Part shown: positions 1,680 to 40,784 of the stretch, one piece after another
Layout: each line of letters starts with the position of its first letter
Numbering within the stretch: position 1 is the first letter of the stretch
Virus record (IMG/VR): IMGVR_UViG_3300028394_000134
Span: 1 to 42,080 of that record
Length of the DNA: 42,080 nucleotides
Origin: a virus
Reading direction: 5' to 3' (one strand)
The notes under the pieces: model-generated
The model's input: only the letters and a program-made list of their open reading frames with translations
Database searches by the model: none
What the model was told of the DNA's origin: nothing
Program-made: the position numbers and the translations under genes

Positions 1680-4144
1680 TGGCCGCACCTTACTCTGGAA
1701 TTGCGCAGGCCCTTCCGAACAACCCGATGGCGATGGACGGTGGTCCGGGGATGGAGGTCGATATCCCCGATGACGATCTTCCGGAAGCGGGCGGCGACGT
1801 AACCATTGAGCCTGACGAGGATGGCGGGGCCACGGTGATCTTTGGCCGGGACATCGAGTCGTTGGATGTATCGTCTATTGGGTTTGGCGACAATCTCGCT
1901 ACTGTTTTGGAAGACACTGATCTGGCGAAGATCAGTCAGGACCTTTGCGGGTTGATTGAGGATGATAACAGCGGTCGTGCGGATTGGGAGAAGGCGTATG
2001 AGGAGGGGCTTACGTTGCTTGGCCTCATCTATGAGGAGCGCACGGAGCCGTTTAATGGTTCTACTGGTGTCGTGCATCCTCTTCTCAACGAGGCGGTAAC
2101 GCAGTTTCAGGCTCAGGCTTACAAGGAAATGTTGCCTGCGAGCGGTCCTGTTCGGACGCAGATTGCTGGGAACGCCACTCCGGAGAAGGAGGCGCAGGCC
2201 CAGCGCGTGAAGGACTACATGAACTACCAGATTACGGTCGAGATGGAGGAGTATGATCCCGACTACGACCAGATGCTGTATTACCTTGGCTATGGTGGAT
2301 CGACCTTCAAGAAGGTCTACTACGACGGGGACTTGCAGCGGGCGGTATCGCCTTATGTGTTGCCGAAGGATTTGATTGTACCGTATTCGGCGCGGGATTT
2401 GATGACGGCGGAGCGTGTGACGCATGTGTTGAGGGTGTCGGAGAACAACCTTCGCAAGCAACAGGTCAGCGGGTTTTATAGGGATTTGGACATGTCGCCC
2501 CCTGCGGAGCCGATGCGTGACCAGATCGAGGAAAAGACGGACAAGATTACGGGCGTGGAGCCCTCGGGGGATACCGAGGAGTACACCCTGTACGAGTGCC
2601 ACTGCTCCCTTGATATTCCCGGCTACGAGGACAAGGATGAGGACGGCGAGCCGACCGGGGTCCAGTTGCCGTATATTGTAACAATCGACTCATCGAGCGG
2701 CGACATTCTGGCGATTCGTCGTAACTTTAGTGAGAACGATCCGAAGCGGCGCAAGCGCCAGTATTTTGTACACTACAAGTTCATGCCCGGACTTGGGTTC
2801 TATGGGTTTGGGCTGGTGCATTTGCTGGGGAATTTAGCGAGATCATCGACCTCGGTCCTCCGACAGTTGATTGATGCGGGGACCTTGGTGAACATTCCCG
2901 CTGGCTTCAAGGCCAAGGGGATGCGCATTCAGGATGCGGAAAGCCCGATTCAGCCCGGCGAGTGGCGGGATGTGGACGCTCCCGGTGGGGCGCTTCGCGA
3001 TAACCTCATGCCGCTTCCGTACAAGGAGCCAAGCGCGACCCTTATGCAACTGTTAGGGTTTTGCGTGACAGCCGCCGAGAAGTTCATTGGGTCGGCGGAC
3101 CTTGGAATGACAGACTCCAATCAGGAAATGCCGGTTGGTACGACCATCGCATTGCTTGAGAGAGGAAGCCGCGTTCTGAGCGCCGTGCATAAGCGCCTGC
3201 ATTACGCGCAGAAGCAGGAATTAAAACTTCTTGCTCAGGTGTTTGCGGAGTATATGCCTCAGGAGTACCCGTACACGGTTGAGAATGCGCAGCCGAACAT
3301 CATGCAGCAAGACTTCGATCAGAAGGTCGATGTCATTCCTGTCAGCGATCCCAACATCTTCTCGATGACGCAGCGGATTGCCTTGGCGCAGCAACAGCTT
3401 GAGCTATCAAAGGCTGCACCGCAACTCCATAATACGTATGAGGCGTATCATCGGATGTACTCGGCGTTGGGTGTGAGGGATATCAACTTGATCCTCCCAC
3501 CACCGCCCAAGCCACAGCCTGAGGGACCGGCGATTGAGAACGCTCGGGCCATGACGGTGCCGAATGGTGCGATTCCGTTGAAGGCGTTTCCGGAGCAGGA
3601 TCATCTGGCGCACATTGATGCGCATGTGGCGTTCATCAAGACGCCGCTTATCCAGAACTCGCCTCAGGTGTACGGGATTTTGCTGGCTCATGTGTTTGAG
3701 CATGTGTCCTTTGCTGCGATGAAGCAGGTCGAGATCGCCTTGAAGGAGCTGACGCAGCCTCAGATGGATCCCCGTAGCGGGCAGATGATGCAGCCTAACC
3801 CGCCTCCGCCCGAGATGATCCAGTCGAATGCTGCAAAGCTTGAGGCTGCGATGGTCAATCAGATCATGGCTGCGATTGCTCCGCCGCCCCCGGACGCTGC
3901 GACCAATCCTCTGCTTCAGATCCAGAATAGGGACTTGGACATCAAGCAGAAGGCGCTTGAGTTGAAGATGGATGAGGCTGCGCACAAGCTTGATCTTGAG
4001 GATCGCCGTCTTCAGGTGAAGGAGGAGACGGACGCCGAGCGTCGCCAGTCCAATGAGGACATTGCGCAGCTTCGTGCTAATGTATCCATCGAGCGAGCCA
4101 ATCTTGCGAATAGGGCTGCTGCTGCGAGGAAGGGTCAGCAATGA
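1679..4144 (+). CDS. portal protein (P22-like, long form)
   Basis: The portal is the dodecameric ring at the capsid vertex through which DNA is packaged and ejected. This 821-residue protein starts one base before the end of the terminase stop codon. Its length and position fit the long podoviral portals. Recognisable conserved text includes FNGSTGVVHPLLNEAV near residue 120 and EMPVGTTIALLERG near residue 490, both typical of portals in uncultured podoviruses. An acidic N-terminus (about residues 20-65) precedes the core. The C-terminus from about residue 735 is strongly charged and heptad-like (IKQKALELKMDEAAHKLDLE), predicting a long helical barrel or coiled coil, as in P22 gp1. The stop overlaps the next start (ATGA). 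Family assignment rests on remembered conservation and context; the portal role is secure, exact subfamily is not. Confidence 0.88.
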   Translation: MAAPYSGIAQALPNNPMAMDGGPGMEVDIPDDDLPEAGGDVTIEPDEDGGATVIFGRDIESLDVSSIGFGDNLATVLEDTDLAKISQDLCGLIEDDNSGRADWEKAYEEGLTLLGLIYEERTEPFNGSTGVVHPLLNEAVTQFQAQAYKEMLPASGPVRTQIAGNATPEKEAQAQRVKDYMNYQITVEMEEYDPDYDQMLYYLGYGGSTFKKVYYDGDLQRAVSPYVLPKDLIVPYSARDLMTAERVTHVLRVSENNLRKQQVSGFYRDLDMSPPAEPMRDQIEEKTDKITGVEPSGDTEEYTLYECHCSLDIPGYEDKDEDGEPTGVQLPYIVTIDSSSGDILAIRRNFSENDPKRRKRQYFVHYKFMPGLGFYGFGLVHLLGNLARSSTSVLRQLIDAGTLVNIPAGFKAKGMRIQDAESPIQPGEWRDVDAPGGALRDNLMPLPYKEPSATLMQLLGFCVTAAEKFIGSADLGMTDSNQEMPVGTTIALLERGSRVLSAVHKRLHYAQKQELKLLAQVFAEYMPQEYPYTVENAQPNIMQQDFDQKVDVIPVSDPNIFSMTQRIALAQQQLELSKAAPQLHNTYEAYHRMYSALGVRDINLILPPPPKPQPEGPAIENARAMTVPNGAIPLKAFPEQDHLAHIDAHVAFIKTPLIQNSPQVYGILLAHVFEHVSFAAMKQVEIALKELTQPQMDPRSGQMMQPNPPPPEMIQSNAAKLEAAMVNQIMAAIAPPPPDAATNPLLQIQNRDLDIKQKALELKMDEAAHKLDLEDRRLQVKEETDAERRQSNEDIAQLRANVSIERANLANRAAAARKGQQ

Positions 4145-7100
4145 ACAAGAAGTTTGGCCTCTTGAGCCTTTCGGATCGCGTCCGCGCAGCGGGCCGTGGT
4201 CGGGATACCGTGCTGGCGCATATCACGCCAGAGGAGGCCGCTTTCCTAAAAGCGCGTGGCGGGCGGGGGACTATCAATCCGAAGACCGGGCTTATTGAAC
4301 TGGAAGAGGATGGTTTCTCTGGCGGCTTCACTGACACCTTTACTGGTTTCTCTGGCGGCTTCACTGACACCTTTACTGGTTTCTCTGGCGGCTTCACTGA
4401 CACCTTTACTGGTTTCTCTGGCGGCTTCACTGACACCTTTACCGGCTTAAATGACACCTTTAACTCCGCTTTTGTTGACTTTACAGGAGCCAATAATTCT
4501 GCATTTGACACCTTTACTGGTTTCTCTGGCGGCTTCACTGACACCTTTACTGGTTTCTCTGGCGGCTTCACTGACACCTTTGTAGACACCTATGTAGACC
4601 CCAACGTTAATACCTTTGTAGACACCTATGTAGACCCCAACGTTAACACCTTTGTAGACACCTATGTAGACACCTATGTAGACCCCAACGTTAACACCTT
4701 TGTAGACACCTTTGTAGAACCTTTCGTAGACCCCAACGTTAACACCTTTGTAGACACCTTTGTCGAACCTTACGTTGACACTTTTGTCGAACCTTACGTT
4801 GACACTTTTGTCGAACCTTACGTTGACACTTTTGTCGAACCTTACGTTGACCCCTACCAAGTTTTAAACGACTTCGTTGACCCCTTTGCAGGGTTCGACG
4901 GTTTAAAGGAAGATGACGTTACCGGCCCTGAAATCGACCCAAAAACGGATATTACCGAGACCGATGATGAGTTGAAGCCTGATGTTGAAGTACCGACAAC
5001 TACTACACCAGATGATGCTACCCTCAAGAGTTATCCCGGAGTTCTCCCAGACGGCACTCGTAAGGGTGAGCCGGGGTACAATGAGAAGGTTCTTCAACTC
5101 ATTGAGGACGTTAAGAATGGAATTTCTCCCGGTCGGAATATCTATGGTCCGGGCGTTCTCCCAGACGGCACCCGCAGGGGTGATCCGGGATACGCTGAAA
5201 AGTTGCAGGCTCTTGTGGATGGTGTGAACGCCGGAACTATCTCTGTTGTGGCTAACAGCACTTTCAACCCTGATCTCTATAAGAAGACGAAAGACGCTGT
5301 TGACCTGACGGGCGGTACGACAACGGGTAATGTTCTAACGGGAGGTACGGCAACCGGCGATGTTCTGACAGATGGTACGGCAACCGGCGATGTTCTAACG
5401 GGAGGTACGACAACCGGCGATGTTCTGACGGATGGTACGACAACGGGTAATGTTCTGACGGATGGTACGACAACATTCTCATACACGGATCCGACGGCGA
5501 GCTACCGTTATGACATACTTGGCAACTTAAGCCCGGACGCCTTCTATCGTTCGCAGTTCTCCCCTCAGTTTGCCAACGAGATTTACTCGAACGTCAATCC
5601 CAACTTCTCGATAGACGAGCAGGGGAATCCGGTAGATGCGAACGCGCCTACGACGGGCGACGTTACGACCGCGCCGTTGGCTGGCGACTTTGTGGATGCG
5701 CAAGGGAACCTCATCACGGATACCGTGGGTAGGTTGAAGCCCGGCGTTGATCTGTCAATGTATGCCGAGCCCTCTGACGGCAAGGAAAGCAATTTTTCGG
5801 CGCTGTACGACAATGCCCCAACCCCAACCCCTCGCCCAACTCAATCCGAGTTGGATGCTTACAATAAGCCCGGCCTAGCAGCAGCCATATCCATAGCAAA
5901 CGACTTATCTTCTAAAACTCTGAGGGGCGAGGATGTTCAACTTCGTCCATCCCTTGATCTTTCGGCGGAAGAGCGAAAGGCCGCAATCCAGACCATTGCC
6001 TCTGAGATCGACTATCGTTCAAAACTGAGCAACCCTGATTTAATTCAGGAAGCTTTGGGCGTCTCTGGGGTTATCCGCAATCGTCTGGAAAACGGCGAGT
6101 GGGGTGACAACCTTGTTGATGTCGTCAAATCCCCATATCAGTTCTCGGGGTGGAATGCGAATGCCCGTGGGGATCCCAATAGAGATCCAACCCTAGTCCC
6201 CACAGACAGTGCGAAGTATAGGGCCGCCGAGATCGCCTATGACCAGACTTTTGGCAAGGGGGTTGATGTTACGGGTGGTGCTTTGAACTTTTATGCACTT
6301 CGCAGCATGAAAAGTGGAGAGCCTCCAAGCTGGGCGGATGGCAAGGATGCCGTGACGGTTGGTCCTACAACTTTTGTCTACGGTATTGATCCGGGTGGAA
6401 GCAACCGAAACGTAGCTTCGACGGGTCAGCTTCCTCCGGGGGTGTCTTCCTACAATCAAATAACTCCCCCTGCTGACATCCCAATAAAGGGTACTGGTAC
6501 TTCAACTGATCCAATAAGGGGTTTGGATTACACCACTAGTCCGTCAACAATAGACAAAGCTGTCAACGCCATCCCCGGAGCTGCGGTTGACCTCGGCCTT
6601 GGAGCGATGATCCCGTTGTACGGCGCGGGGATCCTCGCTGGTAAGGTCATTGGTTGGGCGACCGGAAGTGACTTCCAGTCTCCGGGATCTAGAATTGCGG
6701 AGGGCGTGTTTGGTGGTCCGGGAAGTTTTGGCAACGCTCCGGCGAGTGCGGTCACGAAGGATTACACTCGTCCTGCGGAAGCTCCGGCTGAGATTTCTCG
6801 TCTTTCCCAGACAGCCGGTGGAACTCCCATCATCTCTGAGCCCGCCACTGGTCCGATCCAGTATCCTCCCGCCACGATTGGTGAGGGCGTAACAACTCAG
6901 AGTGCAGTTCCTCCGGGAGCCACTTCTTTCGGGCAGAACTTCAACGCCTCTACTCTTCCGGGAGCCACTTCTTTCGGGCAGAATATCCGCACCAACTTCA
7001 CGGGCGGTATGTCCTATACCCCTGAAGAGGGTGCTGTCGCTCGTTCTGTCACAGGGGATCAGACAACAGGGGGTGTTGTCCCGAAGGAGTATCAGGCTCC

Positions 7101-7833
7101 ATTCACGGCTCCTGATAGGGCTTACATTCTTCCCGAGGAACTGGCGTTTGCTGGAAAACCTGAAACACCATCTCTGTTGGATTATCAGCCGCCCGGTCAA
7201 AGCTACGAGCTTCCCGATTACGTGGCGCGAATGGGGGAGCCGCAGCCCTACAGCCCCCCGTTCCAGCCCATCAACAAGCAGTATGCTCTTCCCGAGGAAC
7301 TGGCGAACCTCGGCAGGCCTGCAACTTCGTCCCCGTTGGATTATGCCAACCCCTCTACCAAGTACGTTCTCCCGCCTTCAGCGGGTGGCGTTAGTCCTCC
7401 CGGACTAACAAGATCCCCCGATGTTTCGTCGGCTCGCTCCATGATATCTTCTACGGGATCTGGTTTCACCGGGTCCTCGATTGATGGTACGCTGTCACGT
7501 AGCGGTGGAATTTCCAGTCTCGGAGGTGGTGGTGGCGGCGGAACCAACGTCTCTGTTGGTGGCGGCGGTGGCGGTGGCGGCGGGGCTGCAAGGCCCACTA
7601 CCACTTCTGGCTCACTCGGATCTGTTGCTGCGCGAAACTTTGATTTTCAAGGAATTGCTGGCGCAAATCGTCAGTTTAAATCTCCTGTTGTGGGAAGTGG
7701 TCGCACGGTTGACTTTGGTACGCCCTCGCGACAGCTTGCGTATGATCTGAACTTGCCCGCCATCCAGCAGGCTGCAATGAACCCGAACAGCTACAGAGGC
7801 TATCTGTCGCAATACAAACAACTCTTCGGCTAA
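4141..7833 (+). CDS. large repeat-rich virion-type protein with SleB-like cell-wall hydrolase domain
   Basis: This 1230-residue protein overlaps the portal stop (ATGA). Order of parts: residues 10-57, a module (RAAGRGRDTVLAHITPEEA...INPKTGL) also present in the 531-residue protein at 25242; 58-240, tandem repeats of FSGGFTDTFTG, then VDTYVDPNVNTF, then VEPYVDTF; 300-360, two copies of a GVLPDGTRxGxPGY unit; 391-445, ten-residue repeats GGTTTGNVLT; about 605-755, a domain that fits the SleB/Hydrolase_2 fold; then Pro/Ala/Gly-rich C-terminal repeats (LPEELAxxGxP) and poly-glycine at about 1130-1150. In the hydrolase part E622 (TIASEID) is in the position of the catalytic glutamate, followed by VIRNRLENGEWG, QFSGWN (667-672), NFYAL (716-720) and PSW (729-731), all hallmarks of SleB-like lytic enzymes. 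It probably acts on peptidoglycan as a virion component, but a structural role is inferred from context only. Confidence 0.75.
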   Translation: MNKKFGLLSLSDRVRAAGRGRDTVLAHITPEEAAFLKARGGRGTINPKTGLIELEEDGFSGGFTDTFTGFSGGFTDTFTGFSGGFTDTFTGFSGGFTDTFTGLNDTFNSAFVDFTGANNSAFDTFTGFSGGFTDTFTGFSGGFTDTFVDTYVDPNVNTFVDTYVDPNVNTFVDTYVDTYVDPNVNTFVDTFVEPFVDPNVNTFVDTFVEPYVDTFVEPYVDTFVEPYVDTFVEPYVDPYQVLNDFVDPFAGFDGLKEDDVTGPEIDPKTDITETDDELKPDVEVPTTTTPDDATLKSYPGVLPDGTRKGEPGYNEKVLQLIEDVKNGISPGRNIYGPGVLPDGTRRGDPGYAEKLQALVDGVNAGTISVVANSTFNPDLYKKTKDAVDLTGGTTTGNVLTGGTATGDVLTDGTATGDVLTGGTTTGDVLTDGTTTGNVLTDGTTTFSYTDPTASYRYDILGNLSPDAFYRSQFSPQFANEIYSNVNPNFSIDEQGNPVDANAPTTGDVTTAPLAGDFVDAQGNLITDTVGRLKPGVDLSMYAEPSDGKESNFSALYDNAPTPTPRPTQSELDAYNKPGLAAAISIANDLSSKTLRGEDVQLRPSLDLSAEERKAAIQTIASEIDYRSKLSNPDLIQEALGVSGVIRNRLENGEWGDNLVDVVKSPYQFSGWNANARGDPNRDPTLVPTDSAKYRAAEIAYDQTFGKGVDVTGGALNFYALRSMKSGEPPSWADGKDAVTVGPTTFVYGIDPGGSNRNVASTGQLPPGVSSYNQITPPADIPIKGTGTSTDPIRGLDYTTSPSTIDKAVNAIPGAAVDLGLGAMIPLYGAGILAGKVIGWATGSDFQSPGSRIAEGVFGGPGSFGNAPASAVTKDYTRPAEAPAEISRLSQTAGGTPIISEPATGPIQYPPATIGEGVTTQSAVPPGATSFGQNFNASTLPGATSFGQNIRTNFTGGMSYTPEEGAVARSVTGDQTTGGVVPKEYQAPFTAPDRAYILPEELAFAGKPETPSLLDYQPPGQSYELPDYVARMGEPQPYSPPFQPINKQYALPEELANLGRPATSSPLDYANPSTKYVLPPSAGGVSPPGLTRSPDVSSARSMISSTGSGFTGSSIDGTLSRSGGISSLGGGGGGGTNVSVGGGGGGGGGAARPTTTSGSLGSVAARNFDFQGIAGANRQFKSPVVGSGRTVDFGTPSRQLAYDLNLPAIQQAAMNPNSYRGYLSQYKQLFG
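4312..4857 (+). repeat. three adjoining families of in-frame tandem repeats
   Basis: A 33-base unit (GGTTTCTCTGGCGGCTTCAC... encoding GFSGGFTDTFT) occurs at 4312, 4345, 4378 and 4411, and again at 4519 and 4552 after a 75-base spacer of partly related sequence. Copies are nearly identical in DNA. It is followed by a 36-base unit encoding VDTYVDPNVNTF (4582-4617, 4618-4653, 4666-4701 and a longer variant to 4749). Last come 24-base units encoding VEPYVDTF (4762, 4786, 4810, and a final variant at 4834-4857). All units keep the reading frame. The near identity at silent positions indicates recent expansion by slippage or unequal recombination. Confidence 0.95.
5311..5475 (+). repeat. 30-base in-frame tandem repeat
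   Basis: A 30-base unit beginning GGCGGTACGACAACGGGTAA is repeated at 5311, 5341, 5371, 5401 and 5431, with a partial sixth copy from 5461. It encodes GGTTTGNVLT-type decapeptides with D/G and A/T substitutions. Copies differ at only a few positions. The repeat lies in the linker before the hydrolase domain of the 1230-residue protein and probably forms a flexible or beta-rich spacer. Confidence 0.95.
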
Positions 7834-8557: not shown

Positions 8558-8943
8558 TGAGATGCTTTCTGGCTTTCACCATCCTCCTGTTCTCATCCGC
8601 TGCCCTTGCAGATAGCTGCGAGGTCGCTTCTCCTGACTGGACGGGCCGTGTTTGGTCGCGACCTTCGTCGTGCAGCGTCACGAAGTCTGGACCGACAACT
8701 GAGATAATCATTGGGGCGAGGGATACCTTCTGGGATGTGACGGGGAATATTGGACGCCACATCATTCCGGGATTTATCTGGAACAAGAACGATGGGTGGT
8801 ATAGGGACACTTCTAGGGATCAGGTCATCTGGGAAGGATCTGTCAAGCAGACTTCAGCCTCCTGTTCTGTTGGAGGCATGGCTTCTGGGGGATGGGACTT
8901 CTCAAACGGGATGCGAATCTGTCTGCCTAAAAGGGGACCATAG
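8557..8943 (+). CDS. secreted four-cysteine protein, function unknown
   Basis: The ATG at 8557 overlaps the preceding stop (TGATG); a GTG three bases earlier would only add one residue. The first 18-20 residues (MRCFLAFTILLFSSAALA) form a classic Sec signal peptide with an ALA-D cleavage site, leaving about 109 mature residues. The mature part has four cysteines (DSC, SSC, ASC, RIC), enough for two disulfides, and is rich in Trp and Gly (DWTGRVWSRP, GGWDFSNG). It is therefore expected in the periplasm or outside. It lies between a coiled-coil membrane protein and a C-tail membrane protein just before the holin. Export, envelope targeting and superinfection interference are all possible; no family was recognised. 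Confidence 0.7.
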   Translation: MRCFLAFTILLFSSAALADSCEVASPDWTGRVWSRPSSCSVTKSGPTTEIIIGARDTFWDVTGNIGRHIIPGFIWNKNDGWYRDTSRDQVIWEGSVKQTSASCSVGGMASGGWDFSNGMRICLPKRGP

Positions 8944-9407
8944 TGGATCCGCTCACTCTTCTAGCCGCAGCAAAGGTAAGCTTTGAGGCCCTGAAGGCGG
9001 GCATTGCCGTTGGCAAAGAACTTCAGGGCATGGCGAAAGACATGGGCTCGCTGTTTGATAGCGTAGCCGCGATCACCCGTGTTGCCGCAGATCCCAAGGG
9101 CAACCTGATGGCGGGTAAATCCGCGCAACAGATTGCAATGGAGGCTTATGCCGCAAAGGCAGAAGCCGACTCAATGATGGAGCAGTTGAAAAACCACTTC
9201 ATTGGTGAGTTTGGCCTAGCGGCGTGGGATCAAGTTCTGTCAGCGACAACACAGATAAAGAAAGACCAGAAGGCGGCGGCTCTTGAAGCGGAGAAGGCTT
9301 CGGAGGAGTTGATGAATACCATCGCACTTTGGGGCACGGTCTTCCTCATTGTAATCGTGGTTATCGCCTGCCTGATCCTCATCACCTTTGGGCTCGTTCG
9401 TCGGTAG
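8943..9407 (+). CDS. C-terminally anchored membrane protein, function unknown
   Basis: A GTG start at 8943 overlaps the previous TAG by one base (TAGTG). The 154 residues are mostly amphipathic helix, rich in Ala, Lys and Glu (for example KKDQKAAALEAEKASEEL). They end in one strong hydrophobic segment at about 128-151 (WGTVFLIVIVVIACLILITF) and a short basic tail LVRR. This is the topology of a tail-anchored inner-membrane protein with a cytoplasmic helical body. It sits directly before the 3-TM holin and may belong to the same lysis cluster, but its role is unknown. Confidence 0.7.
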   Translation: MDPLTLLAAAKVSFEALKAGIAVGKELQGMAKDMGSLFDSVAAITRVAADPKGNLMAGKSAQQIAMEAYAAKAEADSMMEQLKNHFIGEFGLAAWDQVLSATTQIKKDQKAAALEAEKASEELMNTIALWGTVFLIVIVVIACLILITFGLVRR

Positions 9408-9416
9408 GAGAAAAAA

Positions 9417-9938
9417 GTGGATCTCATCGCAAAGTTTGGACCCCTTCTTGGACAGATTGCGCCTTCCATCGCCACGGCGCTTGGCGGTCCTCTTGCGGGG
9501 GTTGCTGTCAGAACCCTGTCAAACGCCCTGTTCGGCCATGAGGATGGGACAGAGCAACAGGTTTCGGACGCTCTGTCCTCCGCTACCCCCGATCAGCTTG
9601 CTACGATCAAGAAGATCGACGCCGACTTCAAGGTTCGGATGAAGGAACTTGACATCGACCTTGAGAGGATCTCCGCAGGGGATCGTGACAGCGCCCGGCA
9701 AATGCAGCGCGATACGAAGGATTGGGTTCCCAAGGTCCTTGCCATCGTCATTACGCTTGGCTTCTTTGGCATCCTGATCTGGATGCTCCTCAACGGAATG
9801 CCGAAGACCGGAACAGAGGCGCTTCTGATGATGTTGGGCGCTTTGGGGACGGCGTGGACCGGCGTGGTTAACTTCTATTACGGCTCGTCCGCTGGGTCTA
9901 AGGCCAAGACGGACGCCCTTTCCATGAAGGACAAGTGA
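9417..9938 (+). CDS. holin of the GTA 3-TM type
   Basis: Holins form inner-membrane lesions that let the endolysin reach peptidoglycan. The 173 residues match the plan of the gene-transfer-agent 3-TM holin family. It has an amphipathic N-terminus (LIAKFGPLLGQIAPSIATAL), a charged central helix ending in DRDSARQMQRDTKDWVPKVL, then hydrophobic segments (AIVITLGFFGILIWMLL; ALLMMLGALGTAWTGVVNF) and a YYGSSAGSKAKTD tail. The NFYYGSSAGS ending is very characteristic. The start is GTG, 10 bases after the previous stop, with AGGAGA upstream. One base separates its stop from the endolysin start, so the lysis pair is translationally linked. Confidence 0.85.
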   Translation: MDLIAKFGPLLGQIAPSIATALGGPLAGVAVRTLSNALFGHEDGTEQQVSDALSSATPDQLATIKKIDADFKVRMKELDIDLERISAGDRDSARQMQRDTKDWVPKVLAIVITLGFFGILIWMLLNGMPKTGTEALLMMLGALGTAWTGVVNFYYGSSAGSKAKTDALSMKDK

Positions 9939-9939
9939 C

Positions 9940-10449
9940 ATGCAAGAGAATTGGGATGAGAGCTTTGAGATGGTACTTGCCCATGAGGGGGGTTTTGTGA
10001 ACCATCCAAAAGATCCGGGGGGCATGACCAACTTGGGCGTCACCAAGGCGGCTTGGGAGGGCTATGTCGGAAAGTCCGTTGATGAGACCTTCATGCGCAA
10101 GCTTACGCCTGAAGTGGTCAAGCCCTTCTACAAGGCAATGTACTGGGACAAGATCAAAGGGGATCAGCTTCCTGCTGGTGTGGACTATGCCGCCTACGAC
10201 TTAGCGGTAAACTCCGGCGTTGGTAGGGCTGCAAAGTTCTTGCAGGAGATTGCGGGCGTTACAGTGGACGGGGTTCTTGGCCCGAAGTCTATGGGAGCAA
10301 TCAGAGAGTGCGACCCGGAACAGACTGCGGAAGCCATCTGCGACATGCGCCTTGATTTCCTGAAACGCCTGCCAACTTTCGAAACTTTCGGAAAAGGTTG
10401 GACGATCCGGGTCAACGATGTGAAGGCCAAGGCAGCGGAGATGGCGTGA
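9940..10449 (+). CDS. endolysin, glycoside hydrolase 108 type
   Basis: This enzyme cleaves the glycan strands of peptidoglycan at the end of infection. The N-terminal half has the family 108 signature: HEGGFVNHPKDPGGMTNLGV with catalytic E16 directly after H15, then an AYDLAVNSGVGRAAKFLQ segment. The second half (from about residue 95, VDGVLGPKSMGAI) matches the PG_binding_3 peptidoglycan-binding domain usual in this family. At 169 residues it is of normal length. It has no signal peptide or SAR segment, so it depends on the preceding holin for release. The stop TGA overlaps the next ATG. Confidence 0.93.
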   Translation: MQENWDESFEMVLAHEGGFVNHPKDPGGMTNLGVTKAAWEGYVGKSVDETFMRKLTPEVVKPFYKAMYWDKIKGDQLPAGVDYAAYDLAVNSGVGRAAKFLQEIAGVTVDGVLGPKSMGAIRECDPEQTAEAICDMRLDFLKRLPTFETFGKGWTIRVNDVKAKAAEMA

Positions 10450-10613
10450 TGGCAAAGAAGCCGATCTGGGATAAGTCCCGACCGTCAGGTCTTGGCGCTC
10501 CGAAGAAGCTATCCTCCAAGCAGAAGACCTCTGCAAAGGCGGCGGCAAAGAAGGCTGGACGCCCGTATCCAAATCTCGTTGACAACATGATGGCGGCGAA
10601 GAGGGGGAAGTGA
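10449..10613 (+). CDS. small basic phage protein, function unknown
   Basis: The ATG at 10449 overlaps the endolysin stop (TGATG). An in-frame start further upstream would lie wholly inside the endolysin gene and is unlikely. The 54 residues are very rich in Lys, Ala and Ser (KKLSSKQKTSAKAAAKKAGR) and end in NLVDNMMAAKRGK. Such short basic proteins recur next to lysis and head genes in uncultured podoviruses. Binding to nucleic acid or packaging into the virion is plausible from charge alone. Function unknown. Confidence 0.65.
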   Translation: MAKKPIWDKSRPSGLGAPKKLSSKQKTSAKAAAKKAGRPYPNLVDNMMAAKRGK

Positions 10614-10867
10614 TGGCTAAGTCACCCGCATGGCAGCGCAAGGAAGGTAAGTCCGCCAAGGGCGGGCTTAATGCAAAGGGCCGAGCTTCCTACAACAAGG
10701 CAAACCCCGGAAAACCGGGGCTAAAGGCCCCGCAGCCTGAGGGTGGTCCCCGCAAGGCAAGCTTTTGTGCCCGTATGACAGGCATGAAGAAGAAGCTGAC
10801 TAGCGCAAAGACCGCCAACGATCCAAACTCCCGCATCAACAAATCCCTAAGAGCGTGGAAATGTTGA
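10613..10867 (+). CDS. small basic phage protein (DUF6321-like)
   Basis: Starts at the ATG overlapping the previous TGA at 10613, with a GGGGAAG ribosome site. The 84 residues are strongly basic. The text SPAWQRKEGKSAKGGLNAKG and the later KASFCARMTGMKKKLTSAKT with a C-terminal SLRAWKC resemble a family I recall as DUF6321, found in many phage and environmental contigs. Two cysteines are present. No catalytic pattern is visible. It forms a tight group with the preceding 54-residue gene. Confidence 0.7.
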   Translation: MAKSPAWQRKEGKSAKGGLNAKGRASYNKANPGKPGLKAPQPEGGPRKASFCARMTGMKKKLTSAKTANDPNSRINKSLRAWKC

Positions 10868-10896
10868 GGTGCTGACAGAAAATCAAGGAAACCAGA

Positions 10897-11094
10897 ATGA
10901 CAGATGTTTACATTATTGACAGATTGATTAAAGTAATCCGCGAGCGGCAGCAAACTGTCACTGAAGCGATCACAGAAGGCTCGGTTCAGGATTTTGCCGC
11001 TTTCCGCCACCTCCGGGGAAAACTCGAAGTGTGGAAGGAAGTTGAGGATGAACTTCGCCTTCTGCTGAAGAAACAGGAAAGACATGACGAGTAG
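10897..11094 (+). CDS. small helical protein, function unknown
   Basis: A 65-residue, highly charged protein with AAGGAAA 11 bases before its ATG. Nearly all of it should be alpha helical, with heptad-like spacing in the second half (LRGKLEVWKEVEDELRLLLK). Its last 11 bases overlap the start of the GroES-like gene, so the two are probably translated together. No family was recognised. Confidence 0.65.
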   Translation: MTDVYIIDRLIKVIRERQQTVTEAITEGSVQDFAAFRHLRGKLEVWKEVEDELRLLLKKQERHDE

Positions 11095-11569
11095 TCTGAT
11101 ACTTCCAACGCACCTTCAAGCAAAGCTTGAAAAAGAAAATGTTTCACGTGAAACATCTGATTCGGGGGCACTAGATGCAGCCTTTGTCCCCGAGGCCGAT
11201 AGGGTCTTTGACCCAACAAAGCTCCCAGACACAGCCCTTGCCCGTCTCCCGCAACCTACGGGTTGGCGACTTCTTGTGCTTCCCTACCGTGGGAATGCCA
11301 AGTCAAAGGGCGGCATTCTCTTTGCAGATCAGACGGTTGAGCAGAATAGCCTAGTCACGGTTGTGGCTTATGTGCTTCTTGTTGGCCCTGACGCCTATAG
11401 CGATAAAGCTAGGTATCCAAGTGGGCCTTGGTGCAAGAAAGGTGACTGGGTAATCATCGGTCGCTACGCCGGGGCGCGTTTCAAGATTGAGGGTGGGGAA
11501 GTCCGCATCATCAACGAAGATGAAATCCTCTCAGTAATCGCTGATCCTTCAGACGTTTCCAACGTCTAG
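11084..11569 (+). CDS. GroES-like co-chaperonin (Cpn10 fold) with N-terminal extension
   Basis: Co-chaperonins cap the GroEL ring during protein folding; phage versions (T4 gp31, RB49 CocO) support capsid-protein folding. Residues about 59-155 align by eye with the Cpn10 fold. They hold an entry strand TGWRLLVLPYRGN, a mobile-loop region with KSKGGILFADQT (GIL in the place of the hydrophobic GroEL-binding tripeptide), VGPDAY, KKGDWVIIGRYAG and the closing EVRIINEDEILSVI. The domain is of normal length. The preceding 58 residues are an extra, polar segment and contain the parS sequence at codons 19-24. The gene lies immediately upstream of the scaffold and capsid genes, which fits a capsid-folding role. 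Its start overlaps the upstream gene by 11 bases. Confidence 0.82.
   Translation: MTSSLILPTHLQAKLEKENVSRETSDSGALDAAFVPEADRVFDPTKLPDTALARLPQPTGWRLLVLPYRGNAKSKGGILFADQTVEQNSLVTVVAYVLLVGPDAYSDKARYPSGPWCKKGDWVIIGRYAGARFKIEGGEVRIINEDEILSVIADPSDVSNV
11140..11155. promoter_or_regulatory. parS: perfect parS-type palindrome (ParB binding site)
   Basis: The 16 bases TGTTTCACGTGAAACA form a perfect palindrome identical to the consensus centromere site bound by chromosomal ParB/Spo0J proteins in most bacteria. It lies within codons 19-24 of the GroES-like gene, in the extension that precedes the folded domain, and is read there as NVSRET. No second full copy was noticed elsewhere in the window, although partial half-sites occur (for example ACGTGAAAC near 22234). 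No parA or parB gene with the usual HTH is visible in the window, so binding would have to be by a host or distant phage ParB. The sequence match is direct observation; function is inference. Confidence 0.85.
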
Positions 11570-11591
11570 CAGCGCAGCAATGGAGATTGCT

Positions 11592-12464
11592 ATGTCAGAA
11601 AACGGTGAAGTGGAAGACGACGGCTCTATTGAGATCACTCTTGAGGATACCGAGTCTACAGGAACCCCCGTCGTAAAGAAGGTTGAGGTCTCCTCTGGAG
11701 ACACTGACCTTCAGGACCACTCCGAATCTGTCAGGAAACGGATCGACAAGCTGACCTACCGGGTCCGGGAGGCCGAACGCCGCGAACAAGCCGCGCTTGA
11801 GTTTGCCAAGGGCTTGAAGGGTCAGTTGGATACCTATCAGGAACGGGCTCATGTTCTTGACCGGACGTTGGTCAACGAGTTTGACAACCGCCTGAAGACC
11901 CAAGAGAAGATGGTCAAGGACGAACTTCGTCGCGCCATCGACGAGGGGAATGTTGACGCTCAGATCACGGCGCAGACGGCTCTTGCAAATTTAGCTGTGG
12001 AAAACGACAAGCTTAGGCAATCTAAAAACCGCCGCGATAATGAGGATCGGCACAGGGCCGCGATCCAAGCCGCGCCTCCCCCTAGGGTTGAGCAGCAAGC
12101 CCCCCGCCCGGACCCGAAGGCTCAGTCTTGGGCGGAACGGAATGAGTGGTTTGGCAGCGACAAGGCTATGACAGCTACGGCGTATGCTATTCATGCTGAC
12201 CTTGTGGAAGCTGAAGGGTTCGATCCTACCTCCGACGATTACTATCAGGAGCTAGACAGTAGGATCCGCAACGAATTCCCCCACAAGTTCAAATCCGCTC
12301 AGGGGAATACCCGCCCGCAGTCCGCCGTGGCCTCCGCCCGGACGACCGTGAAATCTAGCAACAACAAGGTGAAACTGTCTGAAAGCCAGATCAGGGTTGC
12401 CAAGTCGCTAGGAGTTAGTTTAGAAGAGTATGCTAGACATGCTCGGATACAGCAGCAGGGTTAG
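11592..12464 (+). CDS. capsid scaffold protein
   Basis: Scaffold proteins guide capsid shell assembly and leave before DNA packaging. The 290 residues are acidic at the N-terminus, then strongly helical and charged (VREAERREQAALEFAKGLKG, further heptads to about residue 150). A Pro/Gln-rich linker follows (APPPRVEQQAPRPDPKAQ), then a WAERNEWFGSDKAMTATAYA segment typical of podoviral scaffolds, and a basic C-terminal helix that would contact the coat protein. I prefer the ATG at 11592 because GGAG lies seven bases before it; an ATG at 11580 would add four residues. Position between co-chaperonin and capsid genes supports the call. Confidence 0.82.
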   Translation: MSENGEVEDDGSIEITLEDTESTGTPVVKKVEVSSGDTDLQDHSESVRKRIDKLTYRVREAERREQAALEFAKGLKGQLDTYQERAHVLDRTLVNEFDNRLKTQEKMVKDELRRAIDEGNVDAQITAQTALANLAVENDKLRQSKNRRDNEDRHRAAIQAAPPPRVEQQAPRPDPKAQSWAERNEWFGSDKAMTATAYAIHADLVEAEGFDPTSDDYYQELDSRIRNEFPHKFKSAQGNTRPQSAVASARTTVKSSNNKVKLSESQIRVAKSLGVSLEEYARHARIQQQG

Positions 12465-12468
12465 TCAA

Positions 12469-12930
12469 ATGACTGTTAACCGTACTCCTAGATCAGAGAC
12501 TGTCCGCGATAAAGAATCGCGCCCACTTGTGTGGAAACCCCCGTCCAGTTTGGACGCACCCCCGGCTCCCGAGGGGTACAAGCACCGTTGGATCCGTATG
12601 GAAGCCAACGGACACGACGACCGGAAGAACGTTTCCGCACGTACACGCGAAGGCTTTGAGCTAGTTCGCGCCGAGGAATACCCAGATTGGGATCTCCCCA
12701 CCATCAACGACGGCAAACATGCTGGCGTTATCGCAGTTGGAGGATTGGTCCTTGCGCGTATTCCAGATGAACTTGTTCGCCAGAGGACTGATTACTTCCG
12801 GAAGCAAACTCAACAGCAGCTTCAGGCGGTAGACAACGACCTTATGCGTGAGCAACACCCTTCAATGCCTATGGTTCGTCCCGAGCGACAATCACGGGTA
12901 ACTTTCGGCGGAAATCGTTCCTCCGAATAA
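12469..12930 (+). CDS. head-region virion protein, function unknown
   Basis: 153 residues starting at the ATG five bases after the scaffold stop; an upstream in-frame ATG at 12430 would overlap the scaffold by 35 bases and add 13 residues. The text KPPSSLDAPPAPEGYKHRWI, GHDDRKNVSARTREGFE and DGKHAGVIAVGGLVLARIP, followed by a Gln-rich helix, is a pattern I recall in the capsid block of many uncultured podoviruses. It therefore looks like a conserved virion or capsid-assembly protein. The biochemical role is unknown. Confidence 0.72.
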   Translation: MTVNRTPRSETVRDKESRPLVWKPPSSLDAPPAPEGYKHRWIRMEANGHDDRKNVSARTREGFELVRAEEYPDWDLPTINDGKHAGVIAVGGLVLARIPDELVRQRTDYFRKQTQQQLQAVDNDLMREQHPSMPMVRPERQSRVTFGGNRSSE

Positions 12931-12947
12931 CCACAAGGATCTGAGCA

Positions 12948-13565
12948 ATGGCAAATATCAATGCCTCGTTCGGGCTTCGCCCGTATCGTATGCTTGGAAG
13001 CGGCGCGAACACCAATGGCGACATTGTGTTCTCTATTCAGACTGCGGCTACTGCCGGTTCTTCCAGCGTGATCTATCAGGGCACTCCTGTTATCCCGCTG
13101 GCGAACGGCATGATTGATGTTGTCGGCTCTGCTGCTGGCGGCACTGTCCCCCTTCTGGGCGCGTTTCTTGGCTGTAACTACATTGACCTTACGGGCAAAC
13201 CCCGTTGGTCGCCCTTCTACCCCGGCACCGCTGCTTGCTATGCGAACTCCATTGCTACTGGCATCGTCTCCGCCCACCCCGATCAGGCTTTCCTGATTAA
13301 CTGCGATGCTGCGGCTGCGGACGCTCTTGTCCACGCCAACGCCAACTTTGCTACCGCGACAACCGGCAGCACTGTTTCGGGCCTGTCTGCTGGCAAGCTC
13401 GCCGTCTCGACGGCTACCACGACCAATACTCTCAACATGCGCATTCTTGGCTTCGAGGACACTCCTGCCAGTTCGGATGCTGCTGCTGCTGGTCGTCTGG
13501 CTATCGTCCTCCTCAACAACCACTTCTACCGTTATAATGCTAACGGTACTGGTGCGGGTATCTAA
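12948..13565 (+). CDS. probable head decoration or minor capsid protein
   Basis: The 205-residue product is rich in Ala, Gly, Thr and Asn, low in charge and predicted to be mainly beta strand. It begins ANINASFGLRPYRMLG and ends LNNHFYRYNANGTGAGI. It lies 14 bases before the major capsid gene, with a CAAGGATCTGAGCA ribosome region. This position and composition are typical of capsid decoration (cement) or spike-like proteins in podoviruses of aquatic bacteria. The specific role is inferred. Confidence 0.65.
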   Translation: MANINASFGLRPYRMLGSGANTNGDIVFSIQTAATAGSSSVIYQGTPVIPLANGMIDVVGSAAGGTVPLLGAFLGCNYIDLTGKPRWSPFYPGTAACYANSIATGIVSAHPDQAFLINCDAAAADALVHANANFATATTGSTVSGLSAGKLAVSTATTTNTLNMRILGFEDTPASSDAAAAGRLAIVLLNNHFYRYNANGTGAGI

Positions 13566-13579
13566 AGGGAGTTTGAACA

Positions 13580-14488
13580 ATGGCAATCACTCGTTCACAA
13601 CTCCTTAAAGAACTGGAGCCGGGCCTTAACGCCCTCTTTGGTATGGAGTACGACCGCTACGACAACGAACACGCTGAAATCTTCGATACGGAGACTTCGG
13701 ATCGTGCGTTTGAGGAAGAGGTTATGCTGTCTGGCTTCGGTCAGGCCCCTGTAAAGGGCGAAGGCGCAGCCATCGTGTATGACACGGCTGGCGAAGCTTT
13801 CACTGCTCGCTACACCCACAACACCATCGCGCTGGCTTTTGCGATCACTGAGGAAGCTGTAGAGGACAACCTCTACGACAAACTCAGCGCCCGCTATACC
13901 CGTGCGCTGGCTCGCTCGATGTCCAACACCAAGCAGGTGACGGCTGCGTCCATTCTGAACAACGCCTTCTCGTCCAGCTATCTGGGCGGCGACGGCGTTT
14001 CGCTCATTAATAGCGCGCACCCCACCACTGGTGGCGGCAACTGGTCGAATACTCTGGCGACTGCTTCGGATCTGAACGAGACTTCTCTCGAACAGGCTCT
14101 GATCGACATCGCTGGTTTCATCGACGAGCGTGGCATCAAGGTTGCCCTGCGTGGCATGAAGCTCATCATCCCGGCGAGCCTTCAGTTCACTGCCGAGCGT
14201 ATCCTGAAGTCCGAGCAGCGTGTCTCGACAAGCGACAACGACATTAACGCTCTGAAGTCTGGTGGCTACATGCCTCAGGGCTTCACCGTTAACCACTTCA
14301 TCACCGACACGGATTCTTGGTACATCAAGACCGATGCCCCGAACGGTATGAAGCACTTCGTTCGTTCGCCTATCAAGACGGCGATGGAAGGCGACTTTGA
14401 AACGGGCAACGTCCGTTATAAAGCTCGCGAGCGTTACAGCTTCGGCTGGTCTGACCCCCGTGCGATGTACGGCTCCCCCGGCGCGTAA
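13580..14488 (+). CDS. major capsid protein
   Basis: This 302-residue protein is the likely main shell subunit. It has an HK97-fold-like layout seen in Mu gpT-type coat proteins: an early acidic helix (SQLLKELEPGLNALFGMEYD) and the EVMLSGFGQAPVKGEGAAIVYDT strand region. These are followed by FAITEEAVEDNLYDKLSARYTRALARSM, AASILNNAF, INSAHPTTGGG, and a C-terminal SFGWSDPRAMYGSPGA. No protease gene or cleaved delta domain is evident. The ribosome site AAAGGGAG is 10 bases before the ATG. A strong terminator follows 27 bases after the stop, as expected for a highly expressed capsid gene. The scaffold is encoded separately upstream. Confidence 0.88.
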   Translation: MAITRSQLLKELEPGLNALFGMEYDRYDNEHAEIFDTETSDRAFEEEVMLSGFGQAPVKGEGAAIVYDTAGEAFTARYTHNTIALAFAITEEAVEDNLYDKLSARYTRALARSMSNTKQVTAASILNNAFSSSYLGGDGVSLINSAHPTTGGGNWSNTLATASDLNETSLEQALIDIAGFIDERGIKVALRGMKLIIPASLQFTAERILKSEQRVSTSDNDINALKSGGYMPQGFTVNHFITDTDSWYIKTDAPNGMKHFVRSPIKTAMEGDFETGNVRYKARERYSFGWSDPRAMYGSPGA

Positions 14489-29658: not shown

Positions 29659-32600
29659 ATGGCAATTTATGCGGTGGACGCTCCGGATGGGATGACATAT
29701 CAACTTGAAGCTCCGGATGGGACACCTCCGGAGCTTGTTTCCTTAAAGTTTCAGAGGGACGTATATCCCGGTATTCTTCGCAAAAAGAACAAGCCTGCCC
29801 CGCCAGAGGAGAAACAATCGTCCCTCCGTCAGGTGGCCGACGTTCCGCTTCAGGTTGGCAAGGGCGCAGTCTCTGGCGTCAGGATGATTTCGGACGCCTT
29901 TGGTGCAGGCAGTGATACGTCTAATACCATCAGGGGTGTTGAGGATTACCTTGGCGGTCTTCTGTCAGCCAAGTCACAGAAGAACGCCCAAGAAATTTCT
30001 CGCATCATGAACGATGCGAAGGACAAGGGCGTATGGGATCAGGTTGTTGCGGCTGTAAGAGCAATCGGAACTGCTCCCGTTGATCTTGTGTCAAATGCCC
30101 TAGGAACATCGGCTCCCGCAATCATCGCCGGTCTCCTCGCCCCAGAAGCCGCTATTGGTGCGGCTGTTGCCGCTGGTGTTGGCGCAGTGATAGGTGCCGG
30201 GTCCATCAAGGGCTCGATCTACGACGAGGTAAAACAGGAACTTGCAGGCAAGCTTCCCCCAGAGGAAGTTGAGAAGCGCGCTCAACTCGCACAGCAGTAC
30301 AACGGGGAGAACCTTGACCAGATCCTTTTAGGCGCTGGTTTCGGAACCCTTGATGCTGTCACAGGAGCTAACCGGATCCTTACCAACGTCGCCAGAAAAA
30401 CCGCCGGTAAAACGGCAATTATGGGCGGGGAAAAGGAAGCAGGGAAGAGTCTCCTAAAGCGCACAGCCTTGGGCGCTGCCGAAGAAGCTCCGCTTGAGGC
30501 TCTTCAGGGCGGACAAGAACAACTTGCCCAGAACCTAGCCATCCAACGCGAAGGCATCGACCGCCCGACATGGCAGGGTGTTGCTGGACAGATGGCGCTT
30601 GAGGGTGGAGCAGGCGCTCTGGCCGGTAGTGTTACCTCCGGAGCCTTTGGCAAGCGCCCCGAGCCCATCATCCCACCAACAGGTACATCCACCGCACCCC
30701 CTCCTCCAAACGCTGCCGCCGGAGCGGTTGTTCCTCCCGCGCCGCCCCCGGTCCCCGGACTTCCGTCCACGGGTGGGCCTCTGGCGACCTCGGGGTCCGT
30801 GGCCCAGACACTAGCACAGCCCCCTGCCGCCGTTGTTGGAAACCCCATCGCGGCGAAGCAGTTTGCTCAGGCTGTTCAAGCCCAGCAACTTGCGGCACAG
30901 GCTGGCGCTACATCTTCCGCACCGCAGGCGGGTCCGACACCTATTGTGGTTCCGCAGCCCAAGGATCTCTTCTCCACCTCTGCCACACCTATTGCTCCTG
31001 CTCCAACACAGGTAGCACCCGCAGCCCCGGCTTCGGCCCCCCTCGCTCCGACGACCCTTGCCCTTCCGCAGGGTCTTGCGGGGGCAAAACTGAGGTACGA
31101 TAAGACGCCGCTTGTTTTTGAAAACGATACCGACAAGGCCATCTACATTGTTCAGGGTAAGAACAAGTCGAAGGCGCATGAGGAATACCGTAGGTGGCTC
31201 CTTGGTCAGGGTTTCACGGATGCCACAATCCAACGTGAAGGGAATCGGGTAAAGAACCGGATCGACAGCCTGATGCGGAGGGCTCCCGGCGCATCCACGA
31301 TTACCGTTCCGCAGATGAGGCCGCTGGGTCTAGTCTTCACAGGACAGGCCCCGTCTGTTCAGCCTCCTGTGGCCTCCCCAGTGGCCGCCCCTGCGCCTCC
31401 CGCGCAGGGTCAACAACAAGCTCCCGAAATCCTTCAACTGATCGAAGCACTCAAGGCACAGAAACCTTCTGTCAGTTCGGCCCCGGTTGTCGCTCCTCCG
31501 ACCACGGCCCCGGTGGTGAGTCCGGCCCTTTCCGAACAAGAGGTTCTGGCTCCTCAAGAAAACATTCTTGTCAAACCCCCTACACCTTTCAACCCGACAC
31601 CTGAAGTGCATAAGACGAAGACTCTTATGACGCGCATGAAGGCTGTTCCGAAGATAGACGTTGCTCCAATGGTTGTTGAACTGTCGGACGTTGTTTCGTC
31701 CGAGGTTCCCGGATACGAAGACGCCCTGCAACCAAGAGATAGGGACCAAAAAGCTTCTGACGCTTGGATTGCTGAGACAGCCTACACGGATTTTAACCCA
31801 GAGCGGTTGATATTTGATCCGTCCGCAGATCGCGGAGCGCCAATCGTAAATGAAAACGGTCATGTCGAAAGTGGCAATGGCCGCATCATGGTGCTTCGCA
31901 CGGTGTATGGAAAAAAAGATCAAGCCTTTGCGGATGCCTACAAGCAAGAGTTGGTAAAGAATGGGTTTGACATTTCGGGGATGAAGAACCCCGTTCTTGT
32001 TCAACGCCGCACAACACCCTTGTCAAAAGATCAAGTTACCGATTTTACAGAGGAACAGAACGACGAGGATAAACTTTCGAGAGGGGCTACCGAGATCGCT
32101 ATCAGCGATTCCAGAAAGATAACTCTGGAGATGCTCGATGCAATTCCTCCGGGGAGGGATTACACGCATCCTGACTTCCTTGCGAAGATGCTTGGTAAGT
32201 TCTCTAAGGATAATCGTGGAAGGCTGTTGGACAAAGACGGGAACATCAGTAAAGAAGGACTTCAGCGTATAAGAAATGCGGTGTTCGCCAAGGCGTATGG
32301 GGATCCCGAAACAATACGTCGCATGTCTGAGGTTCAAGACGATAATATAAAGTCCATAACAAACGCCTTGCTCGACAACGCAGCGATATTCGCAAAGCTC
32401 AGGGTCGAGATGAACAAGGGAAACATATCAAAAGAGTTTTCTTTTGAACCCCTGCTTGATGCAATTAATCGAATCTCTGAAATGAGAAGCGAAAACATTA
32501 AGCTAGAAAATTATCTGTCCCAAAGGGATGCGTTCGATACCATCCCCCCAATGACAGAAAAGTTTATGCGCCTCTTCTTCAGCGAGAAGTCGAGAGCCCT

Positions 32601-35600
32601 TGGTCGTGAAAAAATATCAAGGGGTCTTCACTTCTACGCTTCAGAGGCCTTGAAGGATATTGGAGAGAACGCGGAGAAGCTCGGTATCGCAAAGAAATCA
32701 TCAAGCGATATTTTAGATGAGGCCATAAGGGTCACGCACGGCGTTGAAGTTCAAGAAGGCCCCGGTCTTTTTGGGGAGATGGCACCTGTTGTCAGAGAGA
32801 ACATCCAACCACCGACCGTGGAAACTGCACCCCCTCTCGCGGCGATAACCGTTACGGGGAGGAAGCGCGTCAAGCTTAACCCCGTTGACGGATTTATAGT
32901 TCGCGTCACGTTCTCGGATGGAACGGTGTCTGAGATACAAAGGATGGACACCTATACTACGATGGGTGTGCCGGGGTGGCATGACATTAACAAAACCAGT
33001 ACGCAATCTTCGTTTCTTGGAAATAATGAAGGGTTGGCGATACAAGAGCTTCTAAGAAAGAAGAACGCAGAGAAGTTTGCACCTCTCGACAACATGCAGC
33101 CTATTACTGCGGAGGACATTGTTCAGAAACCTGCGAAGGAGTACGACTGGAGCAAGGCCTTCGACGGTAGGGTTCCCGGCAGGATAGTTTACACAGGGGA
33201 AAACTCCGGTCTCATTCGTGGGTATTCCATAATGAGTGGAAGCCCTGTCTACATGGCCCTCAATAAGCGTGGTCAACACACCACGCATGATGTCGCCTCT
33301 TACACGGGGGCTCTTTTTTCAAAGAGCGAGCTTGATGCTTTACGCGAACAAAGAGAGCGTCTGATAGACGAGGCAAAAGCTCGGAACGACGCAAACCCAA
33401 ACGGTCCCTTCTCGTCCGGTGAAAGGGTAGTGGCCTCTGAAAACTTCCCGAAGGATCTCCTTGGGGTTGCGAAGGGTCTTTTGGATATGCTCGGGATTAA
33501 CTCCCGTGTGTACATCACCACTGTAGAGGACGCTGCAAACGGACGTTTTGATGGGCCGTTTGCAGCCATCGAGTCTGCGCAACTCGATCAACAGTCTTAC
33601 GGAACAACACGTAGGTTGAGCAATGGGGATCACTATATCGCCTTGCGCATTCGTCCACGGTCCTCTGCCAATCTTGAAACCTTGGCGCATGAGATAGGCC
33701 ACATCCTTGAGAAGGACGAGTGGAAGAACACTGACAGCGCCACCAAGAGCGCCGTGATGGCGGCATTTGACAACTGGTCCGTTAGCAACAAAGGGACATC
33801 TGCATCTCAACATATTGAAGCGTTGAGGCCGCATACGACAGGTCGTATGGATGCGATGGATGTTGCGCGTAGGGCTCCAAACATGAAGTCGGAGGAGCTT
33901 CGTCCGTACTGGAAGTCTTTCAATGAATGGTTCGCTGACCAAGTTGCTCGTTGGGCTACGTCTTCGGAGCGTCCCGTCTCTGTCGTTGAGAAGTTTTTTG
34001 CTCGTATCGGAGCTGCGTTGCGCGGGCTCTATTCCTCTGTATCTGGAAGGAAGTATCTGCCCACGGACGCCATGAAGGCGTTTCTTGATGCTCGTGGTCC
34101 TTCCAACATATCGGAGGTCGTGGCGCAGGATCAGCAGTCCGACTTCTTCAGTGGTGCATCCAGCAGCATGGCATCTGCGTCTGGATCAGGCTCTATCTCC
34201 GCACAGAACGCTGCGCTTACAAGTGCCGTAAACGGAAACCCGCAGGGGATAGTCAATCTCCCCGGCGGCCCGACCGCTCAACTAAACTCCGAGAGGTGGT
34301 CGAAGATCACAGGCTCGGTGCGCGAGTTCTTCGACACATGGTACACGGTGGATAAGTTTCCGATCCTGTCAGAGTTCAGAAACCTTCTGTTCGGCAAGAT
34401 TGGCATGTCTACGCAGAAGGCGAAGGATCTTTCGGGAATCATCTCAAAGGGAACCCAAGAGGTTCAGGCGCAGACGTATGCCTACCTCACCACACCCAAC
34501 GCTGATCCATCGTCAATCACTGACGAGAAGGTTCGTGCCGCTGCGGTGGAGGTGAAGAAGGAGATCAACCGTACCGCGAAGGAGATGGTGGATAACGGCT
34601 ATCTTACCGCCGATAGCCTAGCCAAATACTACGATCAGTACCTCCCCCGTATGTACCTCTATTACGAAATGACAGGTCGTGGGATTAAGACGAGCAACAT
34701 GGGCATTAGCCCCCGCGAGTATCTGAAACTTCGTAACGAGGATTTCTCGCCCGAAGAGCGTCAGCTTATGGGTGAGATCAAGAACCCCGCCTTCCTTTCG
34801 TATGTCGCTCTGTCACGTCCTCAAAAGGACATGGCTATGGCGGACTACTTTGATAACATTGTGCAACAGACGGGCGTAAAGTGGATTGCGGACAACAGCC
34901 TTGTTGATTATCGCGGCCATAAGGTCACTCCGTACTGGCTTGCCAATGAAGCAAAAACTCTTCGTAGTTTGGCCGAGCTGACAGAAAAAACAGATCCTGC
35001 CGGTGCGCAGATGATGGTTGATCGTGCCAACGAAATGCGGGATGTTGCTGACCGCGCCATTGGAAGTCAGTCAGAGATCCTTCCTGAAAACTACAAGCGT
35101 CTTCCGGACAGCCATCGCTACGGTGCGCTGCGCGGGGCTGTGATCCAGAAGGGTATCTACGACGACATCATCGGAACCTTTGTTGCTATCCCTGTCAGCG
35201 AGAAACCCTTCATGCAGGCTTTGCTTGGGGACGAGCGAAGCACCATCGTCAAGGCAAACCAGCTCTGGAAGATGATGAAGGTCACGCTCAACGTGCCTTC
35301 GCAGATCCGCAACATGGTGTCGAACGCCATCGCGTTGAACGTCTTCGGCGGCGTCCCATTCTACCGGATCGCTCCGCTCCTTCTTCGTGCTTCCAAGGAA
35401 GTGTCGGAGAACGGTACGTTCTGGCAGGAGGCGCAGAAGTACGGCATCACTGGCGGAACCATGTCGTCCGCTGAGTTGATCCAGATGCGCTCCACCCTTG
35501 AGTCGTACCTTCGCAAGGGCGGCGGAAAAGATATGATGGGGGCCTTCGCCGCCATGCGTATCGCTGCTGGCAATGTTATCGGTGCAGCCTCCGACATCTA

Positions 35601-40704: not shown

Positions 40705-40730
40705 CGAGGTTACGTAGTCACTCAATGTGG

Positions 40731-40761
40731 GGGGCGTACCGTCCTAAAAACGGTGCGTCCC
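40731..40761 (+). promoter_or_regulatory. long hairpin between SSB-like and primase genes
   Basis: GGGGCGTACCGT (40731-40742) can pair with ACGGTGCGTCCC (40750-40761) over 12 positions, ten Watson-Crick and two G:T wobbles, around a seven-base loop CCTAAAA. It fills much of the 80-base spacer, 24 bases upstream of the primase ATG. There is no T-tract after it, so a simple intrinsic terminator is unlikely. It could be an attenuator, a processing or mRNA-stability element, or part of a replication origin. Confidence 0.5.
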
Positions 40762-40784
40762 TTCCTCTCGATGGAGCCTTAGAA

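Follow-up and report, generated by a model that had tools for sequence, protein, structure and literature searches.

Phage-plasmids and extrachromosomal prophages such as P1, N15, and some mycobacteriophages supply the ParA, the ParB, and the parS of their partition systems themselves, and those parS sites are dissimilar to the word described here. On bacterial chromosomes, the loading of ParB at the parS word as a CTP clamp, its spreading, and ParA-driven partition are established (for example PMC7053999; summarised in PMC12704722). In phi29, a virulent phage of Bacillus, Spo0A restrains the lytic cycle and Spo0J (ParB) helps to trap the genome in the spore, according to a paper (PMC9437464) that cites Meijer et al. 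(2005, EMBO J 24:3647). In our site scan the phi29 genome contained four exact parS-type sites, and neither a ParB nor an integrase was found in its relative B103. The phage described here resembles phi29 in bearing a chromosomal-type parS word and, as would be expected of exploitation of the phi29 type, carries it with no ParB or integrase found of its own. It differs in being an unrelated tailed phage with a single site in a gene linker, and whereas host ParB has been reported to act on phi29 DNA in a setting tied to Bacillus sporulation, such action is presumed here. Relative to chromosomal ParABS systems, phage sites share the same 16-bp word and the same spectrum of variants, but show no clustering at an origin, have no parAB nearby, and usually occur in single copy. 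With phages of the P1/N15 type the present phage shares the proposed role, a centromere for unintegrated phage DNA, but in it no parA or parB was found. Our search of open-licence papers recovered neither a solitary chromosomal parS in lytic phages beyond the phi29 case nor an account of the breadth of parS across phages. With phi29 already known, what is new is that the site occurs in an unrelated phage family, that a single parS has relocated within that family, and that parS extends so broadly across phages; the finding would extend phi29-type use of host ParB to unrelated phages, ParB binding being deduced from the DNA sequence.

The window, by which we mean the whole 42,080-base stretch of DNA that was analysed, spans an entire viral record and contains genes for terminase, portal, GroES, a scaffold-like protein, capsid, an SNF2-type helicase, Pam3-like proteins, and primase. 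The record is a partial genome of a lytic-looking tailed phage, incomplete because its archaeo-eukaryotic (AEP-TOTE) primase ORF (40725-42080) runs off the end. A parS-type palindrome, TGTTTCACGTGAAACA, lies at 11140-11155 (no strand assigned) and is the proposed nucleation site for host ParB. All 16 of its bases match the chromosomal parS consensus TGTTNCACGTGNAACA, and it is the sole parS site in the window at up to three mismatches, a level at which dinucleotide shuffles of the window gave a mean of 0.14 sites. The original prediction of a perfect parS site was confirmed by this exact and unique 16-mer, and the chance that it had quoted agrees with the figure of about 1e-5 that a uniform model gives for an exact match in 42 kb.

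The palindrome begins 56 bases past the start codon of a gene encoding a 161-aa GroES/Cpn10 co-chaperonin (11084-11569, + strand; PF00166, phrog_3188, and protein alignment), where the codons GTT TCA CGT GAA ACA specify V-S-R-E-T. A protein alignment of 18 relatives places these codons in a linker between the N-terminal segment and the core of GroES; the core is well conserved, whereas the linker is indel-rich and non-conserved, and the protein would therefore tolerate the parS codons, as had been proposed for this N-terminal part. The sequence evidence supports TGTTTCACGTGAAACA as a genuine parS-type element within a tolerant coding stretch. Downstream lie a scaffold-like gene (11580-12464), a further ORF (about 12430-12930), a gene at 12948-13565 that precedes the capsid gene, and the capsid gene itself (13580-14488), so the site does stand just before the scaffold and capsid genes, as first described. 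Elsewhere in the window, a 1230-aa protein (4141-7833) contains tandem repeats of GFSGGFTDTFT and the related units VDTFVEPYVD and TTTGNVLTDG.

Loss of the palindrome in close relatives had been named beforehand as a refutation, and the site withstood this test. All 16 bases are kept at this GroES position in the two closest relatives, L002 (92% protein identity) and L003 (88%), while about 20% of the flanking positions vary among the three sequences. Windows of 16 bases that are fully invariant make up only 9 of 188 (~5%) in the vicinity of the site. This pattern is suggestive, though not proof, of conservation beyond drift in the window's own lineage, the three sequences giving the comparison modest power.

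The complete records of 48 relatives were scanned together with the window (49 records; 1.18 Mb by summed lengths). With up to two mismatches allowed, 20 of the 49 have parS, always as a single copy, against about 0.3 sites predicted by uniform chance, and the backwards palindrome used as a control occurs in none of the 49. When 840 palindromes of equal composition were ranked by their matches in 589 kb of relatives, parS came second with 10 (mean 0.27); the palindrome above it, with 11, owes its rank mostly to one conserved homologous capsid-gene codon motif plus scattered single matches. Flanks and gene contexts resolve the family sites into about a dozen distinct genome places: upstream of GroES at 1.0-1.3, 2.7-2.9, 5.6, 7.3, 7.6, 10, and 12.6 kb (overall range 1 to 15 kb), within GroES, directly 3' of the capsid gene, and about 9 kb downstream. 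On the GroES tree the parS label requires 12 changes, and well-supported branches force at least seven of these; in the window's clade the site is in GroES, while the exact site of the sister L004 lies 7.6 kb away from the GroES gene. The solitary site thus moves between genome positions within the family. The suggestion that it might be a remnant of host DNA did not survive this comparison, given that it is flanked by phage genes with conserved counterparts in relatives, whose own sites lie at many other places.

The strength and distribution of the family sites vary. Those of G006, G009, G017, and G036, with two mismatches each, are less secure, and the sites of G006 and G009, which lie in a conserved coding motif, are the weakest in the family. 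In the cultured Pelagibacter phage HTVC027P, parS lies in an intergenic gap at 16412 with one mismatch, and the site is present in one of nine named relatives. Not every relative has it: five long ones (35-58 kb) contain no parS at two or fewer mismatches, and none was found at two mismatches in the partial assemblies of SAR11-type single-cell genomes that contain family members.

Profile searches recovered no partition genes that would accompany the site. Chromosomal-type ParB (TIGR00180) scored over the cut-off in 0 of 44 family records, 0 of 13 named parS phages, and 0 of 48 IMG/VR parS records, with weak matches below the cut-off in a few records, and the ParB HTH (PF17762) and ParA-type (PF13614) models each found nothing in 34 records while responding in control genomes. 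The window itself yielded none of the three models, consistent with the original statement that it has no parA or HTH-type parB; since the record is a fragment, absence from the window alone proves little, and that statement draws its support from HTVC027P, which is complete at 57.6 kb, and from the three longest relatives, of 59.6, 60.1, and 61.6 kb, all of them without a recognisable chromosomal-type ParB, ParB HTH, or ParA. For the family, a parB in the stretch that the record does not cover is accordingly disfavoured, although this particular phage could still have one. The only ParB-superfamily domain in the window is a ddrB-like domain (PF18763, residues 665-784) in a 2326-aa protein (29659-36639) that has no detectable ParB HTH. 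parA and parB in cis, which would mark an autonomous phage or plasmid ParABS system, were not found. Integrase searches of the family records were negative save for one match below the cut-off in G040, and use of parS as an integration or attachment site was rejected on this ground; among the sampled named phages, DSS3P8 alone has an integrase. In Microbacterium phage Quhwah, which has an exact parS inside a DNA-binding-protein gene, a weak ParB-like match below the cut-off was seen at 49577-49834 of the record.

The excess of parS extends well beyond this family. In IMG/VR, the exact parS and the variants TGTTCCACGTGGAACA and TGTTTCACGTGGAACA were each found in at least 120 stretches, whereas two control palindromes reached 1 and 10. 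A scan of 50,697 named phage records with an N-padded query recovered exact parS in 286, TGTTTCACGTGGAACA in 147, and TGTTCCACGTGGAACA in 58, and the two control palindromes in 0 and 0. Among the matches listed, the hosts of these phages are mainly Listeria, Bacillus, Lactobacillus, Actinobacteria, and Pseudomonas, with Microbacterium, Arthrobacter, Gordonia, Enterococcus, Stenotrophomonas, Ruegeria, Vibrio, and others also represented; small microviruses and inoviruses appear as well, and Escherichia or Salmonella phages do not. CCACGTG(A/G) forms predominate in Pseudomonas phages. Klebsiella phages are among the matches for one variant, TGTTCCACGTGGAACA, and to our knowledge their hosts are without chromosomal ParABS; these matches count against a reading based on host ParB. 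Conservation or recurrence of parS is non-random in the window, its relatives, IMG/VR, and named phages alike, and the excess in unrelated viruses suggests that many phages may borrow the host's chromosome-segregation machinery.

Placement and copy number differ among these viruses. By record annotation, 10 of 13 sites sampled from 13 named lineages are intergenic, and several of these genomes have two to four sites. The inovirus bajarodino virus 6 (PQ006149.1; 5.9 kb) has six exact parS sites, of which five are intergenic. An array of twelve parS-type sites is packed into about 5 kb (8906-13878) of a 116-kb viral contig, L167, whose record has no ParB above the model cut-off; two further contigs, L097 and L124, have five parS-type sites. 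An exact parS also occurs in single-stranded DNA microviruses of 4-6 kb, namely Spiroplasma phage 4 (position 693) and several gokushoviruses. Separately, parS-type sites were observed inside the direct terminal repeats of Pseudomonas phages phiPsa374, phiPsa267, and others (H279-H281, H312, and H313) and of Vibrio phage phi 3.

Because the site appears to be a genuine parS and no phage parA or parB is recognisable, recruitment of host ParB is its natural reading, as originally predicted, and the alternatives differ in whether ParB is the reader and in what the phage would gain. ParB spreading from parS might silence or time the transcription of adjacent phage genes, which in the window are those of the capsid block. 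Overproduced ParB is reported to potentiate repression of parS-adjacent promoters in Pseudomonas (PMC5521831), and in the window the scaffold and capsid genes closely follow the site. The proposed special link to the capsid block is nevertheless weakened because parS moves around the genome: relatives have it 1-15 kb upstream of the GroES gene, some 9 kb downstream, or 3' of the capsid gene, and the genes that neighbour it vary widely among named phages. We consider such regulation unlikely. Position-independence, low copy number, and the lack of phage par and integrase genes mean that a centromere fits better than a regulator of nearby genes. Replicated phage genomes could also act as a decoy, their many parS copies titrating host ParB to the phage's benefit by disturbing SMC loading or the segregation of the chromosome. 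After replication these copies could outnumber the host's few sites, and the arrays in L167, L097, and L124 would suit this function; single sites in each family member speak against it, a titration device being expected to favour arrays, as does the fact that many hosts can do without ParB or need it only mildly, and the decoy seems to us improbable.

Protection is another conceivable gain, with parS marking phage DNA as chromosome-like and shielding it from, for example, a defence that senses topology or the lack of ParB/SMC on foreign DNA; this would account both for parS in phages that have no integrase and for its indifference to position, but is speculative, and we give it very little weight. 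The palindrome might otherwise be read by a different DNA-binding protein, of the phage or of the host, for which the mostly unannotated phage proteome and the ddrB-ParB domain of the 2326-aa protein leave room. Against such a reader, the parS word and its permitted variants (T/C at position 5, A/G at position 12) recur without a common proteome, the recurrence spans tailed dsDNA phages, microviruses, and inoviruses, and a ParB HTH was not found in the phages tested, all of which make a binder other than ParB very unlikely. Chance, or codons of the GroES linker that were carried along neutrally, could draw on the fact that the GroES position is common to only three sequences, all close relatives, but with ~1e-5 per exact site in 42 kb and enrichment across the family and across phages far above controls, it is hardly credible; on the sequence evidence, the site at 11140-11155 is not a chance match.

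We therefore return to host ParB recruitment, and consider it probable that the 16-mer is a functional chromosomal-type parS acting in cis on a phage that appears to have no ParB, with host ParB positioning or segregating the unintegrated genome. Host ParB would load on the phage parS as a CTP-dependent clamp, slide to adjacent phage DNA, and assemble a partition complex on which host ParA, and possibly SMC, would act. The phage genome would then be treated as a chromosome origin, placed on the nucleoid or at the pole, and handed to daughter cells while unintegrated in slow, starved, or dividing cells. We infer ParB binding, its spreading, and a benefit in positioning or inheritance from the sequence comparisons, and prefer this gain over silencing, titration, or protection, though the benefit is the less certain part. 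More tentatively, and at a confidence that stops short of calling it probable, borrowing of the host centromere may be a general and repeatedly evolved strategy of non-integrating phages, including inoviruses, microviruses, and tailed phages, in which a solitary, moving parS would lead to host-driven positioning and inheritance, and thereby to a carrier state without integrase or par genes in both sporulating and non-sporulating hosts.

How virulent phages persist in slow or starved cells without integrating, whether by pseudolysogeny or in a carrier state, is a long-standing question. A centromere on the phage genome that is read by the host would, if true, be a concrete mechanism for such persistence. 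It would also mean that ParB, a widespread marker of the chromosome, is commonly recruited by phages, and that parS may serve as a sequence-based clue to phages that infect ParB-bearing hosts.
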